From the NCBI GenBank assembly GCA_963920765.1, contig OY987246.1, positions 2,668,501 to 2,732,500 of the forward strand: a stretch of DNA of 64,000 nt, in the 5' to 3' direction. The notes beneath the pieces are model-generated. The model was given only the letters and a program-made list of their open reading frames with translations. It was not told the origin of the DNA and ran no database searches. A program made the position numbers and the translations under genes. The stretch comes from Ulota crispa (Eukaryota; Streptophyta; Bryopsida; Orthotrichales; Orthotrichaceae). Of the stretch, positions 15,859 to 63,943 are shown piece by piece (the stretch's first letter is position 1; each line of letters opens with the position of its first letter).

Positions 15859-17597
15859 ATGCAAACGATACAAAGCGGAGTTCCGACGCAAGACTGGGAT
15901 TATATCAGGCAGTTCCGGCGGTCGACGTGGGTCGAAAGGAACGATTCTATGAAGGGGCACTATGCTGGCAGTGTAGTGAACAAAGGGATCACAAAGACGT
16001 TCAAGCGCGGAGTGGGAGTGTGCGACTGCCGAAAACTCGATGTACGTACATTAACCATTTTGATCACTTCTACAGAACTCGTCCAAAATACTCAAAACAG
16101 GTTTACAAGCTGGAATCTTCAATGATACCTGTGTGAAAAGATGTCCCTCGATCACCACACCGAGTTCCACGAAGCGTTACTCAGCTTGAACTGCCTATGC
16201 TTCGGAAGGCACTGTTGATCCTTTGTGTTTAAAAGTATGTTCACGCTTGGTGTTACGAGTGGTAGTAGCGAAGGAAAATTAGATGCATTTGGACATATCT
16301 TTAGACTGCATTCATATTGCTAATACCCCTCCTAACACCAAGTGTGAACATACCCTTAAGGCTCCTTCTGTCCACATCAACGCGGTTTTAAACAGGGTTA
16401 GCTGTGGTCTATGGAACAAAGCTAGAGGAGAGAAGGTTGTTCAGTATCCGCTAGTAACAGAATCGAACATGGTGGATCTGACAGGGAGACAAATTGTGAG
16501 TGATTCAGGTATGGAGGGCAGCAGCCGTGGAAATGGTGGCCACAGCGGGATTTACCTTCTTGAGCATCACAGCATACCAGCAAGGCAGCAACATGTCAGC
16601 GGTATGCCGAGCCTTCCTGCAAGCCATGATCTACTCTCTGGCGATACTTGCGGCGGCGCCAATCTCCGGAGGACATCTGAACCCCGCCATCACCTTCACG
16701 ACCTTCCTGACTGGCCAAGCCACTCTGGTTCGCAGTTTGCTCTACATCGTGGCGCAATGCGGAGGAGCCGTAGGTGGCGCTGCAGCAGTCCAGTTTTTGA
16801 CCACCCAGGCAGGGAAAAGCGCATACTCCACGGGGGGGTGTTTACTGCGCGCGTCCCCAGGTGCAGATGTGGCTATGGCAGCGACGTTAAGCAACAGACA
16901 GGGGCTAGTGGCCGAGGCCATCTTTACCATAATCATGCTCTTCGTCGTCTATGGAGTCGGGTTTGACACCCGGAGTGTCGTGGTGACCTTTCCTATCATC
17001 TCTCCTTTCATCATCGGAGGAGTTTTTGGCACTTTGATCTTCGTTTCCCAGGGTCTTGGATACACCGCCACTATGAACCCCGCCCGGTGTTTGGGCCCTG
17101 CGGTAATCTACAGGCGTGACTTGTGGCACTCCCTCTGCACCTTCACTGTTGGTCCTATGATAGCGGCTGTAGTGGTCGGCGTCTTCCAGCTGCTGGTGCA
17201 ACAAGCCAACAGTGCAGAATCTGGACCTGTCTTGCCACTGAATTTCTTCCAAGCTGTTATACCGGATCACCAACGTCCAGGGTTCGGTCCCAGGTCTCCA
17301 AGCTTGTATTCCCCCGCCGAGGACAACGCTCATTCGCAACAGCTGGGGCCAAGTTATCCAGCCACAAATGAATTCCAGCCTTCAGGTGACCTGAATCCTG
17401 CCAGTAAATACAACCTCACCCTTCAGATCAAGGCATTTATGCAACCGAAAGGTTCCGAGAGCCAACGGGCCATCGCTGCTAACGTTGTAGATATTGCGAG
17501 GTTCGATCAAAACCACATGTTAAGACAATATTCAAACTCGCATGGTTCATCCGAGAGTGGTATTCATCACACAGGTCATCCAGAAAAGGAAAGATAG
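15859..17597 (+). CDS. XIP: X-intrinsic protein (XIP) aquaporin with long cytosolic tail
   Basis: Two exons, 15859-16041 and 16509-17597, join in phase across a GTACGT...TTCAG intron to give about 423 residues. The junction creates LDVWRAAAVEMVATAGF, the usual entry to the first membrane helix in XIPs. Two NPA boxes are present: GGHLNPAITF (about residue 119) and GYTATMNPARCLGPAV (about residue 251). The cysteine directly after NPAR (NPARC) is the recognised signature of the XIP subfamily. Family knowledge: MIP channels form tetramers, and XIPs pass water and small uncharged solutes, with membrane location varying by member. Odd: after the sixth helix (about residue 295) comes a hydrophilic tail of about 128 residues rich in Ser, Pro, Gln and His, far longer than usual. 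The start ATG is chosen because it opens the frame into the splice. The gene converges on the FAN-like gene. Its intron holds a 131-bp MITE. Confidence 0.88.
16229..16359. mobile_element. 131-bp MITE inside the XIP intron
   Basis: The ends TTAAAAGTATGTTCACGC and the inverse of TTAAGGGTATGTTCACAC match over about 30 bp (TATGTTCAC-CTTGGTGTTA-GAG-GG), and both lie at TTAA. The element sits wholly within intron 1 and contributes no splice site that can be seen. Confidence 0.65.
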
Positions 17598-29169: not shown

Positions 29170-29702
29170 AACCTGTAAACATGCGCGGTATAACAAACAC
29201 TAATTTTTTAATTAATAATTGATCATAATATAAAAAATGAATGATTTGAATGGCATGACTTTTCTTGTTGCAAAAACATAATAAAATTTAAGTATAGGGT
29301 TTAGGGTGATTTAGATATATGGCATCAAATGTTAACTAGCTTCCAAAAAATTTAGAGGCCTCACCAAATCAAGCCTATAGAGGGAAAAATCAGCCAAAAT
29401 CATGGTATAAATGACCACTTATACCGTGACTTTGACTGATTTTTTCCTCTATAGACTTGATCATTTATACCATGACTTTGGCTGATTTTTCCCTCTATAG
29501 ACTTGATTTGGTGAGGCCTCTAAATTTTTTGGAAGCTAGCTAACATTTGATGCCGTAATCTAAATCACCCTAAACCCTATACTTAAATTTTATTTTGTTT
29601 TTGCAACAAGAAAAGTCATGCCATTCAAATCATTTAATTTTTATATTATGATTAATTATTAATTAAAAAATTAGTGTTTGTTATACTGGGCATGTCTACG
29701 GT
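29170..29702. repeat. 0.53-kb near-perfect foldback palindrome
   Basis: The left arm (about 29170-29431) and right arm (about 29480-29702) are inverted copies with few differences. Matching anchors: ATAACAAACACTAATTTTTT at 29190 against its inverse ending 29684, GAATGGCATGACTTTTCTTG, and GGCCTCACCAAATCAAGCC against its inverse near 29500. The centre carries an extra partial copy (CTTATACCGTGACTTTGACTG), so one arm segment is tandemly duplicated. There is no coding frame. This is a foldback MITE or long-hairpin RNA source. Confidence 0.85.
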
Positions 29703-32775: not shown

Positions 32776-33090
32776 AAAGGGAAAATTTCATGGATACGTC
32801 TGAAGTTTGTAATATTTTCATAGATATCCCTGCTTTTTCAGAAACACACAAATACCCTTGGACCAAAAAAATTAGGCGTTTGTTTTGTTATGCATGTCAC
32901 TTCCTTCTCATTTGTGCATACACTACTTTTTTCTTATTATGCATGTGAACAAAGGAAGAAAGGAAATGACATGCACAACAAAACAAATGCCTAATTTTTT
33001 AGTCCAAGGGTATTTGTGATGTTTCTGAAAAAGCAGGGATATCTATGAAAATATTACAAACTTCAGGCATATCCATGAAATTTTCCCTTT
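32776..33090. repeat. 315-bp foldback MITE
   Basis: The arms are inverted copies: GGGAAAATTTCATGGATA at the left against its inverse at 33070-33088, ATAGATATCCCTGCTTTTTC against its inverse near 33030, and AATTAGGCGTTTGTTTTG against its inverse near 32990. The centre is about 50 bp. Short frames on both strands in this interval are mirror images of each other and are not proteins. Confidence 0.8.
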
Positions 33091-60400: not shown

Positions 60401-61317
60401 ATTTCAAGAAATAAATTGAGTCCGCTAATGACTAATTGGCTTAAGCACCCAAGGGCTTGAGTAACATAAGACACACGTAGTGATCCACACCTATTTTGTG
60501 CAATTTCATTTCAAAAATCGTTCTCAAAGGTGCATAACTTCATAATAAACGTGTAAAATCGGTCTAATTTTTTGCGGTTGGTTTCAGAACAGCAGCACTG
60601 CCTTCGCTTGCACTTTGACTTCGTCCAGTATTATGCAGTCGCGTAAACATCAGCACATGTGGCTGTAAAGAACTGGACAAGCGTCCGACTTGCTATCAAA
60701 CGTGTTAGATAAATACTCCGTTCACTGATGTCAAAGCACCGCTAGCACAAGCAAAAGTTCAGGTTACAGCGCCGAGTGTATGAATATAGGTTATACACAT
60801 AAATTGACTGTTGCTGCTAAACTACCAAAGGAGTCTTCTTAAAAACTCGGTAGTCCTATTTGGTTTATACCAGACATCTTCCGTAGAGCTGGAGGTTTAC
60901 ACCCTAACAAAACTTGATTACGAGTTTAGCTGCTGCAAAATTAGAGTTGTTGCGTAACTCGGACGACGTACTCTCCTTCAAGCGGCTCAGTGTCAATGAC
61001 CAGGCGGTTGCGGTCTCGGCAAATAGACAGATACTAACAGAAACAAAGTCCTGAGCAAGGTGATATCGCCCGCATGTCAGCAAGGCGACTACTGCATTAC
61101 ACTGCCACAAGAGATACAGCAAATACATACGACCAAGTGTCTTTAGCCGAACACAAACTATTCGGCAGCGTTAACGAAAGATCAATAGCCAAAAGATACT
61201 TCGCAGAAAAAAGGCTGCTGATAGATTCGTTAGAAGGATATGCTGCTCACAACAGTTGTAGTCTGTACTACTGTCATGTTTCATCATCGGCAGTAGCGAC
61301 ACATCCAAGTAGGGACT
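57431..61317. other. Region of balanced composition left of the MIR529 pair, no gene recognised
   Basis: Base composition is closer to that of the genic parts than of the AT-rich deserts, and minus-strand frames occur at 58971-59204, 59465-59713 and 60142-60474. None has a known motif. One explanation is downstream parts of a spliced leftward pri-miR529 transcript. Confidence 0.35.
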
Positions 61318-61412
61318 AGAAAAGAGGTAGCACAGCCCGACATCATTGCCCCTGGGACAACTTGAGTTAGAGAGTGAAAAGTAGGGGGCTGTGCTCTCTC
61401 TCTTCGAATCTC
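61310..61412 (-). ncRNA. MIR529: MIR529 precursor hairpin A
   Basis: On the minus strand, 61406-61386 reads CGAAGAGAGAGAGCACAGCC plus C, the miR529 sequence known from bryophytes. It pairs with a star arm at 61338-61318 (GGGCTGTGCTACCTCTTTTC plus T) across a loop of about 47 nt, with four mismatched or wobble positions in the 21-nt duplex. The mature sequence on the 5' arm is the usual MIR529 layout and fixes the strand. Family knowledge: miR529 guides cleavage of SPL (SBP-box) transcription factor mRNAs and controls developmental phase or reproductive change. Confidence 0.88.
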
Positions 61413-61565
61413 GGCTTAAGTGTAGGAAAATTTGACTGGTGTCCTGAACGGGACAGTGCCTCACTCAGGGCATAACATATAATTCCTTGTAACCGGATAT
61501 CCTTGACCTTCCGTGGCCTTCTGCATATCCATGAAATGTGTGACCAGGCGTATGACACTCAAGTT

Positions 61566-61642
61566 GGAACAAGAAGAGAGGGAGCACAGCCCTTTCCAAC
61601 TCAACATTGGCTATCGGGCTGTGCTCTCTCTCTTCTGATCCC
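61566..61642 (-). ncRNA. MIR529: MIR529 precursor hairpin B
   Basis: On the minus strand, 61636-61616 reads AGAAGAGAGAGAGCACAGCC plus C, a second miR529 form differing from hairpin A at the 5' base. It pairs with 61592-61572 (GGGCTGTGCTCCCTCTCTTC plus T) with a single mismatch across a short loop of about 23 nt. The duplex is almost perfect, so the plus strand would also fold; it would carry AGAAGAGAGGGAGCACAGCC, one base off the family consensus. It lies about 210 bp from hairpin A, so both probably come from one primary transcript. Confidence 0.88.
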
Positions 61643-62650
61643 AGCGTAAGTGAGGAAATTTAAGAAGTGCTTCCACGAACTAGCCAGCCAGATCTCATGA
61701 AATGTCTTCCAACTCTCTTCGGGATGCTGAACTCAATCGGCAAGAACCTGCACTACACACAAGCTCGTAAGCAACAAAGCGAGGTAATCAAAAAAGCTCA
61801 AGAGAGAGGAAAGGCAGTTGGCTTAAGGAGGCATAAATGAACCTAAACATGGCAATCAGATTCAAAAAATTCCATCCTAACGGACTGTAAACAGCTGGTT
61901 CCTGCCTGTGCAGGTTCAAAAGTCAGCCAGAAAATTCGTCTCTACAAGACGATGGCCTTACTCCACTTACAAAGATGGCAATAAGAGCCTCTGATTCATC
62001 CTCCAATTTCTATAAGTGACTCTACAAACCGAGGGAAAAAAAAGAGAAAAAGAAAAGAAACTGTTAATGGTCTACAAGGATATTCAACAACGCGTCACTA
62101 ACTTAGCAGGTAAATTCTTGATACTCAGCAGTGCATCAGCGTTAACAAGAAACATTCACGGAAGATATGCTCAGTCAGAGCTTGGGGAAGGCTGCTTGAC
62201 GATGCTCTTACCATCTAAAACTGTAACTCATGGAACTTCAGAGTACAGCAAAGTGAAACGGCTCCAGCAAATCCGTGATCGGAAAGAAATCCAAAGGCTC
62301 CCTCCGCAAGCTTAGCATGCGGCTCTAAGATTGTTCAAAATTCACAGACGCACGACTTGTAACAAGATTGCTCAACCGTGCCGCAACTCTTTCAAGGAAG
62401 ATACAGAGGCAAGAGTTGATCCTCCTTGAGTCCAAGGTTTTTTGTCACAGTATATTATCGGCAAACATTAAACCGCCACGCAACAGCCAGCCAGCAACCG
62501 AGCATATTCTTGCATCCAAGAAGAACCTCAGAATCACATTGGCCAGCGTGCGCATCATCACATGCTGGAATCATCTCCAGATCTCCATCTCCTCGCCAAC
62601 CGCACTCCACCGCACTCCAGTACCGATGAGTGATAGTCATGGAGCGAGAG
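61643..62650. other. Upstream part of the likely pri-miR529 transcript
   Basis: Balanced composition, many small overlapping frames on both strands, no protein motif. Fits 5' non-coding sequence of a leftward primary transcript. Confidence 0.3.
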
Positions 62651-63554: not shown

Positions 63555-63943
63555 GGGAATTGATTTGTGCACATTTGGGGTTTGATATGGGCACACCCTC
63601 ATGGGGTAAATTTTAGATTTTTACCATAAAATGTTGAATTTGAAAATTTTGAATTCAGATTTGAACTTAGAGACCTTGATTAAGTCTAGAACCGTAACAG
63701 AGGTTACAATTGAACAACACCCAATGAAAAAGCTTAGCTAGGGTGCAAAATATTACTTTTACTTTTGTTTCATTAGGTGTTGTTCAATTATAACCTCCGT
63801 TATGGTACTAGACTATATCAAGGTTTTGAAGTCCAAATCTAAATTCAAAAACTTTAAATTTAGCTTTTTGATGGTAAAAATCTAAAACTTGTCTTGCAGG
63901 GGGTGCGCATATTTTGAACCCCAGTGTGCACATATCAATTCCC
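63555..63943. repeat. 389-bp foldback MITE
   Basis: The left end GGGAATTGATTTGTGCACA and the right end, inverse of GGGAATTGATATGTGCACA, begin inverted arms of about 170 bp (TAGATTTTTACCAT; AGTCTAGAACCGTAACAGAGG against the inverse CCTCCGTTATGGTACTAGACT). The loop is about 40 bp. Related internally to the repeat cluster at 13735-14860. Confidence 0.8.

Follow-up and report, generated by a model that had tools for sequence, protein, structure and literature searches.

Tandem MIR529 foldbacks on the minus strand of a Ulota crispa locus, and a second unit in the same genome

The tandem arrangement of MIR529 hairpins is already described in moss, as three miR529 gene pairs stand in tandem among the seven genes of Physcomitrella patens (available text of PMC4409300). 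For the same species, Axtell et al. 2007 is cited in the accessible part of PMC9291395 for 25% of miRNAs being polycistronic. Outside the mosses, the MIR529c-MpSPL2 module of Marchantia represses the vegetative-to-reproductive transition (available text of PMC10721683). The accessible portion of PMC1838911 makes no mention of miR529.

The locus described herein lies in a window of 64,000 nt (C5:2668501-2732500), by which is meant the whole stretch of DNA analysed, from the 274.8-Mb, 157-contig genome of Ulota crispa. At 61301-61653 on its minus strand are tandem MIR529 foldbacks (Table 1), referred to as the A and C hairpins after the first base of their 21-mers. Each 21-mer is an exact match on the 5′ arm, with the A hairpin upstream and the C hairpin downstream, the 21-mers starting 230 nt apart with 209 nt between them. 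A scan of the window for the miR529 pattern, allowing up to three mismatches, returns three matches (none in 100 shuffles), the third being the star side of the A hairpin read on the plus strand. Folded alone, the A hairpin (61555-61657) reaches −58.5 kcal/mol (z −9.07) and the C hairpin (61296-61424) −44.6 kcal/mol (z −3.22), values that none of 200 shuffles equalled for either hairpin. The description in the earlier note of two independent 5′-arm miR529 hairpins, roughly 210 bp apart and with loops of different size, is thus borne out.

Table 1. Predicted features of the tandem MIR529 locus (window positions), and miR156 hairpins elsewhere in the genome
Feature	Position	Strand	Remarks
A MIR529 hairpin, 23-nt loop	61555..61653	-	Fold; 95/106 nt shared with the A hairpin on C6
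Predicted mature miR529, A form, AGAAGAGAGAGAGCACAGCCC (5p)	61616..61636	-	Same letters as fern pmi-miR529_v1
Predicted star (3p), A hairpin, 2-nt 3′ overhang	61570..61590	-	Fold
Spacer, 131 nt	61424..61554	-	Barely alignable with the 112-nt C6 spacer (17/300 shuffles as high)
C MIR529 hairpin, 47-nt loop	61301..61423	-	Fold, −44.6 kcal/mol, z −3.22
Predicted mature miR529, C form, CGAAGAGAGAGAGCACAGCCC (5p)	61386..61406	-	21-mer identical in the C hairpin on C6
Predicted star (3p), C hairpin, 2-nt 3′ overhang	61316..61336	-	Fold
miR156 hairpin	C1:10777442		−60.6 kcal/mol, z −6.54
miR156 hairpin	C2:5470759		−52.9 kcal/mol, z −5.46

With regard to the surroundings, Pfam scans of flanking frames were empty for 10 of 10 in one set and 5 of 6 in another, with no host gene for the hairpins among them. 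The sole frame recognised by Pfam among the 12 window frames scanned is that of an aquaporin (MIP, PF00230, E 1.2e-31) at 16500-17594 on the plus strand. A foldback- or MITE-like structure occupies 63628-63869, its 102-nt arms being 82% complementary and 38 nt apart, and further long foldbacks are present at 29362-29513 and 32866-33000. Stem-loops with at least 25 of 30 pairs number 13 on the plus strand and 12 on the minus strand of the window, amongst which the A hairpin is counted on each strand and the C hairpin on the plus strand alone. As long stems alone are therefore not rare here, it is their miR529 identity that sets the two hairpins apart.

Assignment to MIR529 was judged by whether a foldback bears a miR529 21-mer on its 5′ arm, as both hairpins do. 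At gathering scores, Rfam lists nothing for the whole window; at E up to 10 the best family is MIR529, under its cut-off. The RF00908 scores are 53.7 (plus) and 47.4 (minus) for the A hairpin and 28.5 (plus) and 24.2 (minus) for the C hairpin, so that both score higher on the plus strand, and all lie below the gathering score of 75 bits, a cut-off that serves annotation without defining the family biologically and that belongs to a consensus of 131 positions with a longer loop. A genome-wide RF00908 search (E up to 1) yielded four matches, namely both strands of two A hairpins, with a best score of 56.9 and none over the cut-off; the same threshold gave matches in 2 of 14 unrelated control genomes, again with none over the cut-off. 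The search fell short of exhaustive: of 37574 first-look candidates 42 were scored, neither C hairpin was recovered, and matches arose in the control as well. Plant miRNA criteria allow at most five mismatches, at most three in bulges, and a precursor of less than 300 nt. With one and three unpaired bases in the 21-mer and lengths of 99 and 123 nt, respectively, the A and C hairpins lie within these bounds. Furthermore, the A-form 21-mer equals a sequenced small RNA of the fern Pleopeltis, pmi-miR529_v1, and its nearest reference is ppt-miR529d (both from the available text of PMC5426797).

A search of all 274.8 Mb with the mature 20-mer, allowing up to two mismatches, returned 13 matches, compared with none for the reversed control. 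Seven of these are hairpin arms at only two places, three in the window and four at C6:14691467-14691759; the other six are at C3:3979502, C3:19932072, C2:27899667, C3:21094676, C8:18608899 and C10:6873981. The C6 locus is an intact pair with the order and orientation seen in the window, carrying AGAAGAGAGAGAGTACAGCCC and then CGAAGAGAGAGAGCACAGCCC on the same strand, 211 nt from start to start. Between the two places, the similarity of the A hairpins extends through the loop, whilst the C hairpins share an identical 21-mer (21/21) and have loops without clear similarity. The spacers align hardly above chance, and no alignment was obtained for the 600 nt upstream of the two pairs (23 of 200 shuffles as high). 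When reading frames of 30 aa or more from the C5 and C6 surroundings (~104 kb and ~105 kb, respectively) were compared, the best 60 matches were all short (51 aa or less) and many of the places recurred in a repeat-like manner, with one group being the MIR529 hairpin itself. With A grouping with A, C grouping with C, and flanks and spacers diverged, the tandem duplication would predate that of the whole unit, the hairpins having been retained as the rest drifted. The MIR529 identity and tandem layout proposed in the earlier note are upheld by the exact 21-mers and by four hairpins in two units. As a separate observation, the C6 A hairpin (C6:14691467-14691531) is fully complementary over its miR529 21-mer, so that the same miR529 form can be read from either strand.

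The existence of two intact units, alike in order and orientation, lends indirect support to one shared primary transcript, and the polycistronic reading, in itself drawn from the layout, is strengthened by the C6 unit. Alternatively, the hairpins could be two MIR529 genes with separate promoters, their tandem position being simply a remnant of duplication in place. No promoter or transcript boundary could be recognised as conserved, and the unaligned 600 nt upstream of the pairs leave space for this view; however, the 131 and 112 nt between hairpins offer little room for a promoter, and order and orientation are preserved in both pairs, making separate genes unlikely.

The four hairpins together lend modest support to a common stem. 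In the C6 A hairpin, position 14 of the 21-mer has changed from C to U (U14), with a matching G-to-A change in the star, and across the four sequences 93.0% of cells in the consensus stem are paired, compared with 39-53% when it is slid by 1-3 columns. Of 500 shuffles, 10 equalled the paired percentage and 10 the covariation score, 36 matched the three two-sided pairs and 229 the count of further pair types, so that covariation from four sequences provides modest backing for the stem. Given the other long foldbacks in the window (e.g. 63628-63729/63768-63869), one might propose that the pair is a foldback or inverted-repeat element of recent origin, with no more than a likeness to miR529. The exact miR529 sequences, the four conserved copies in two units, the element of compensatory change and a matching SPL-type site in the genome all stand against this, and it is considered highly improbable.

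Constraint on the A hairpin looks stronger than that on the C hairpin, and appears to extend into the A loop. Unpaired bases inside the 21-mer number one and three for the A and C hairpins of the window, and none and two for those of C6. It is conceivable, then, that one hairpin, most likely the C hairpin of the window, is decaying, and that only the A hairpin functions. The three unpaired positions, the weaker z-score (−3.22 versus −9.07) and the C loops, which lack clear similarity between copies whilst the A loops are conserved, all fit such decay; however, the 21-mer is identical in both C hairpins and three unpaired positions fall within the plant criteria given above, leaving this a rather improbable account.

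Comparison of the arms is less decisive than the earlier note had suggested in stating that the star had diverged more than the mature sequence. When all four hairpins are compared, 2 of the 21 columns of the 5′ arm are variable, as against 5 of 21 for the star, and within the window pair the mature arms differ at 1 of 21 positions and the stars at 3 of 21, so that the direction is as claimed, but the four-hairpin difference is not significant (Fisher p = 0.41). The 15 nt outside the arms vary in 9 of 15 columns on each side. This bears on the proposal that the plus strand is transcribed, with the opposite arm yielding a miR529-like RNA, or that both strands are used. The A hairpin is nearly palindromic, the two strands of the C6 A hairpin encode the same miR529 20-mer, and the Rfam scores of both window hairpins favour the plus strand; against this, the would-be mature arm is the one varying at 5 rather than 2 of 21 columns (albeit at the p-value given), and the sense strand (minus in the window) folds better than the antisense in all four hairpins, by 2.8, 0.3, 9.5 and 9.5 kcal/mol, with the 0.3 belonging to the window C hairpin. 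Use of the plus strand is thus deemed very unlikely.

Folding of the window pair as a single 421-nt sequence presents a more complex picture. The minimum, at −151.0 kcal/mol (z −3.94), is a nested structure in which arms are cross-paired between hairpins, whilst limiting spans to 130 nt gives two separate hairpins at −139.6 kcal/mol, which is 11.4 kcal/mol worse. The fold of the minus strand from 61700 to 61280 called for in the earlier note therefore returns the two hairpins under the span limit, but not as the global minimum. For the C6 pair, the global minimum of −161.1 kcal/mol keeps the hairpins separate. If folding proceeds at equilibrium, the nested minimum of the window pair counts against a simple two-hairpin picture; co-transcriptional folding, conversely, would be expected to favour the local hairpins.

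Taken together, these observations are best explained, with a high degree of probability, by a genuine tandem MIR529 gene whose presumed single transcript would give two miR529 forms directing SPL cleavage, and whose unit was later duplicated. Under such a model, one Pol II transcript of the minus strand would carry the A hairpin followed by the C hairpin, and a DCL1-type enzyme would cut each above a lower stem of ~15 nt, releasing two miR529 forms, each of 21 nt and alike except at the first base. Both would then direct SPL/SBP-box mRNA to be cleaved where it encodes ALSLLS, at the site held in common with miR156. A tandem duplication followed by that of the whole unit would account for the second pair on C6.

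A putative target of this kind is present in the genome. SBP-domain matches number 12, at seven places, and ~0.9 kb downstream of one such domain (C3:3978305-3978626, plus strand) is the site TGGCCGTGCTCTCTCTCTTCT at C3:3979502-3979522, which encodes ALSLLS, presumably the usual miR529/miR156 site peptide. This combined site falls within an open frame distinct from the domain, likewise on the plus strand (L028:2354-3148, reading ...GRALSLLSSQSW...). Since a Pfam scan of that frame finds no domain, its union with the SBP exons in one SPL gene is proposed from position and from the ALSLLS peptide. Penalties at the site are 2 for miR529-A, 3 for miR529-C and 1 for miR156, with the extra mismatch of the C form falling at position 1. 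The first base of a guide sits in the Argonaute pocket, unpaired with the target; as the A and C forms differ only there, they should act on the same genes. The two predicted isoforms of the earlier note do differ in their first base, but this difference is confined to a position where no effect on targets is expected. Whether A- and C-starting forms are sorted as in Arabidopsis is uncertain, as P. patens has three AGO1 and three AGO4 homologues (available text of PMC3565333).

Within ~1.5 kb either side of each SBP match, a site with no more than two mismatches adjoins only this one of the seven places. At the C4 place, a weak site resembling that of miR156 (penalty 3.5) lies upstream of the domain, and the remaining five have no site with a penalty of 4.5 or less over the same distance. 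Two SBP matches on C8, at C8:11143124-11143345 (minus) and C8:11218206-11218427 (plus), have equal scores and frame lengths and lie ~75 kb apart in opposite orientation, which a recent duplication with inversion might explain, as might the assembly. A putative miR529-like site (penalty 3) is also found at C2:27899667-27899686 on the minus strand.

A further candidate site concerns the leader of an R2R3-MYB frame. On the minus strand at C3:19932067-19932091, the sequence GGGGTATGCTCTCTCTCTTCTGTCA begins 79 nt ahead of the start codon (ATG) of this frame, with a penalty of 2 for both miR529-A and miR156. Genome-wide, the combined site has 19 matches at up to three mismatches, compared with six for the reversed control, and the only four at one mismatch are the two miR156 hairpins, the C3 site beside the SBP domain and this MYB leader. 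The nearest MYB paralogue, at C2:14679652 (63% identity), has a counterpart at C2:14679600-14679624 (plus strand), 55 nt before its ATG, in which 26 of 28 nt are conserved; this island is the only match (E up to 1) within 400 nt upstream of the two genes, their leaders having diverged elsewhere. The C2 site pairs more weakly, with penalties of 6 (miR529-A) and 4 (miR156), and two more distant MYB paralogues have no good site, their best penalties being 7.5 and 6 for miR156 and 10 and 7 for miR529. Both islands start an upstream reading frame, MLSLFCQLIRSTQIVF and MLSLVCQLAKLTQV, for which reason conservation of the encoded peptide competes on equal terms with a miRNA site. That miR529 and miR156 control this R2R3-MYB pair besides SPL, through a 5′ leader site holding the start codon of the upstream frame, such that cleavage and upstream translation compete on the same 25 nt, is a tentative and rather unlikely suggestion. 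A literature search for a miR156/miR529 site in a MYB leader found none by title, which is not a claim of absence from print.

The same C3:19932067 position was also considered as a TAS6 locus and rejected, as it lies upstream of the MYB frame. A candidate TAS6/TAS3 locus does exist on C2, where a miR156 site at C2:11583729 (plus strand, penalty 1) precedes a miR390 site at ~11584563 (plus strand, penalty 2.5) by 834 nt. Neither a miR529 site nor a second miR390 site with a penalty of 6 or less was found there. A TAS6/TAS3 composite is described in Bryophyta (available text of PMC5907777), and this candidate, like the miR529 forms, fits a moss genome.

In comparison with known systems, MIR156 is a related miRNA whose SPL site overlaps that of miR529, and tandem hairpins are known for it from rice MIR156b/c and maize Corngrass1, insofar as the sources available describe them. 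On the SPL site, miR156 is shifted relative to miR529 and begins with U, and in U. crispa its exact 20-mers reside in two single hairpins (Table 1) rather than in a tandem pair. The MIR529c-MpSPL2 module of Marchantia has the miRNA family and target class in common with the present locus, but the accessible part of PMC10721683 says nothing of a tandem layout. That same text describes the role of miR529 in moss sporophytes as unknown, and a compact MIR529 locus such as this one would suit deletion tests in such a lineage. The closest likeness is to the MIR529 pairs of P. patens, which share the tandem layout, although there fewer than 100 nt are stated to separate the members ('data not shown'; available text of PMC4409300), whilst 131 and 112 nt separate the hairpins here, and three pairs among seven genes compare with the two pairs and four hairpins found in U. 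crispa. To this arrangement the present locus adds an A-then-C MIR529 unit that seems to have been kept whole through a later duplication, with its two hairpins apparently under unequal constraint.
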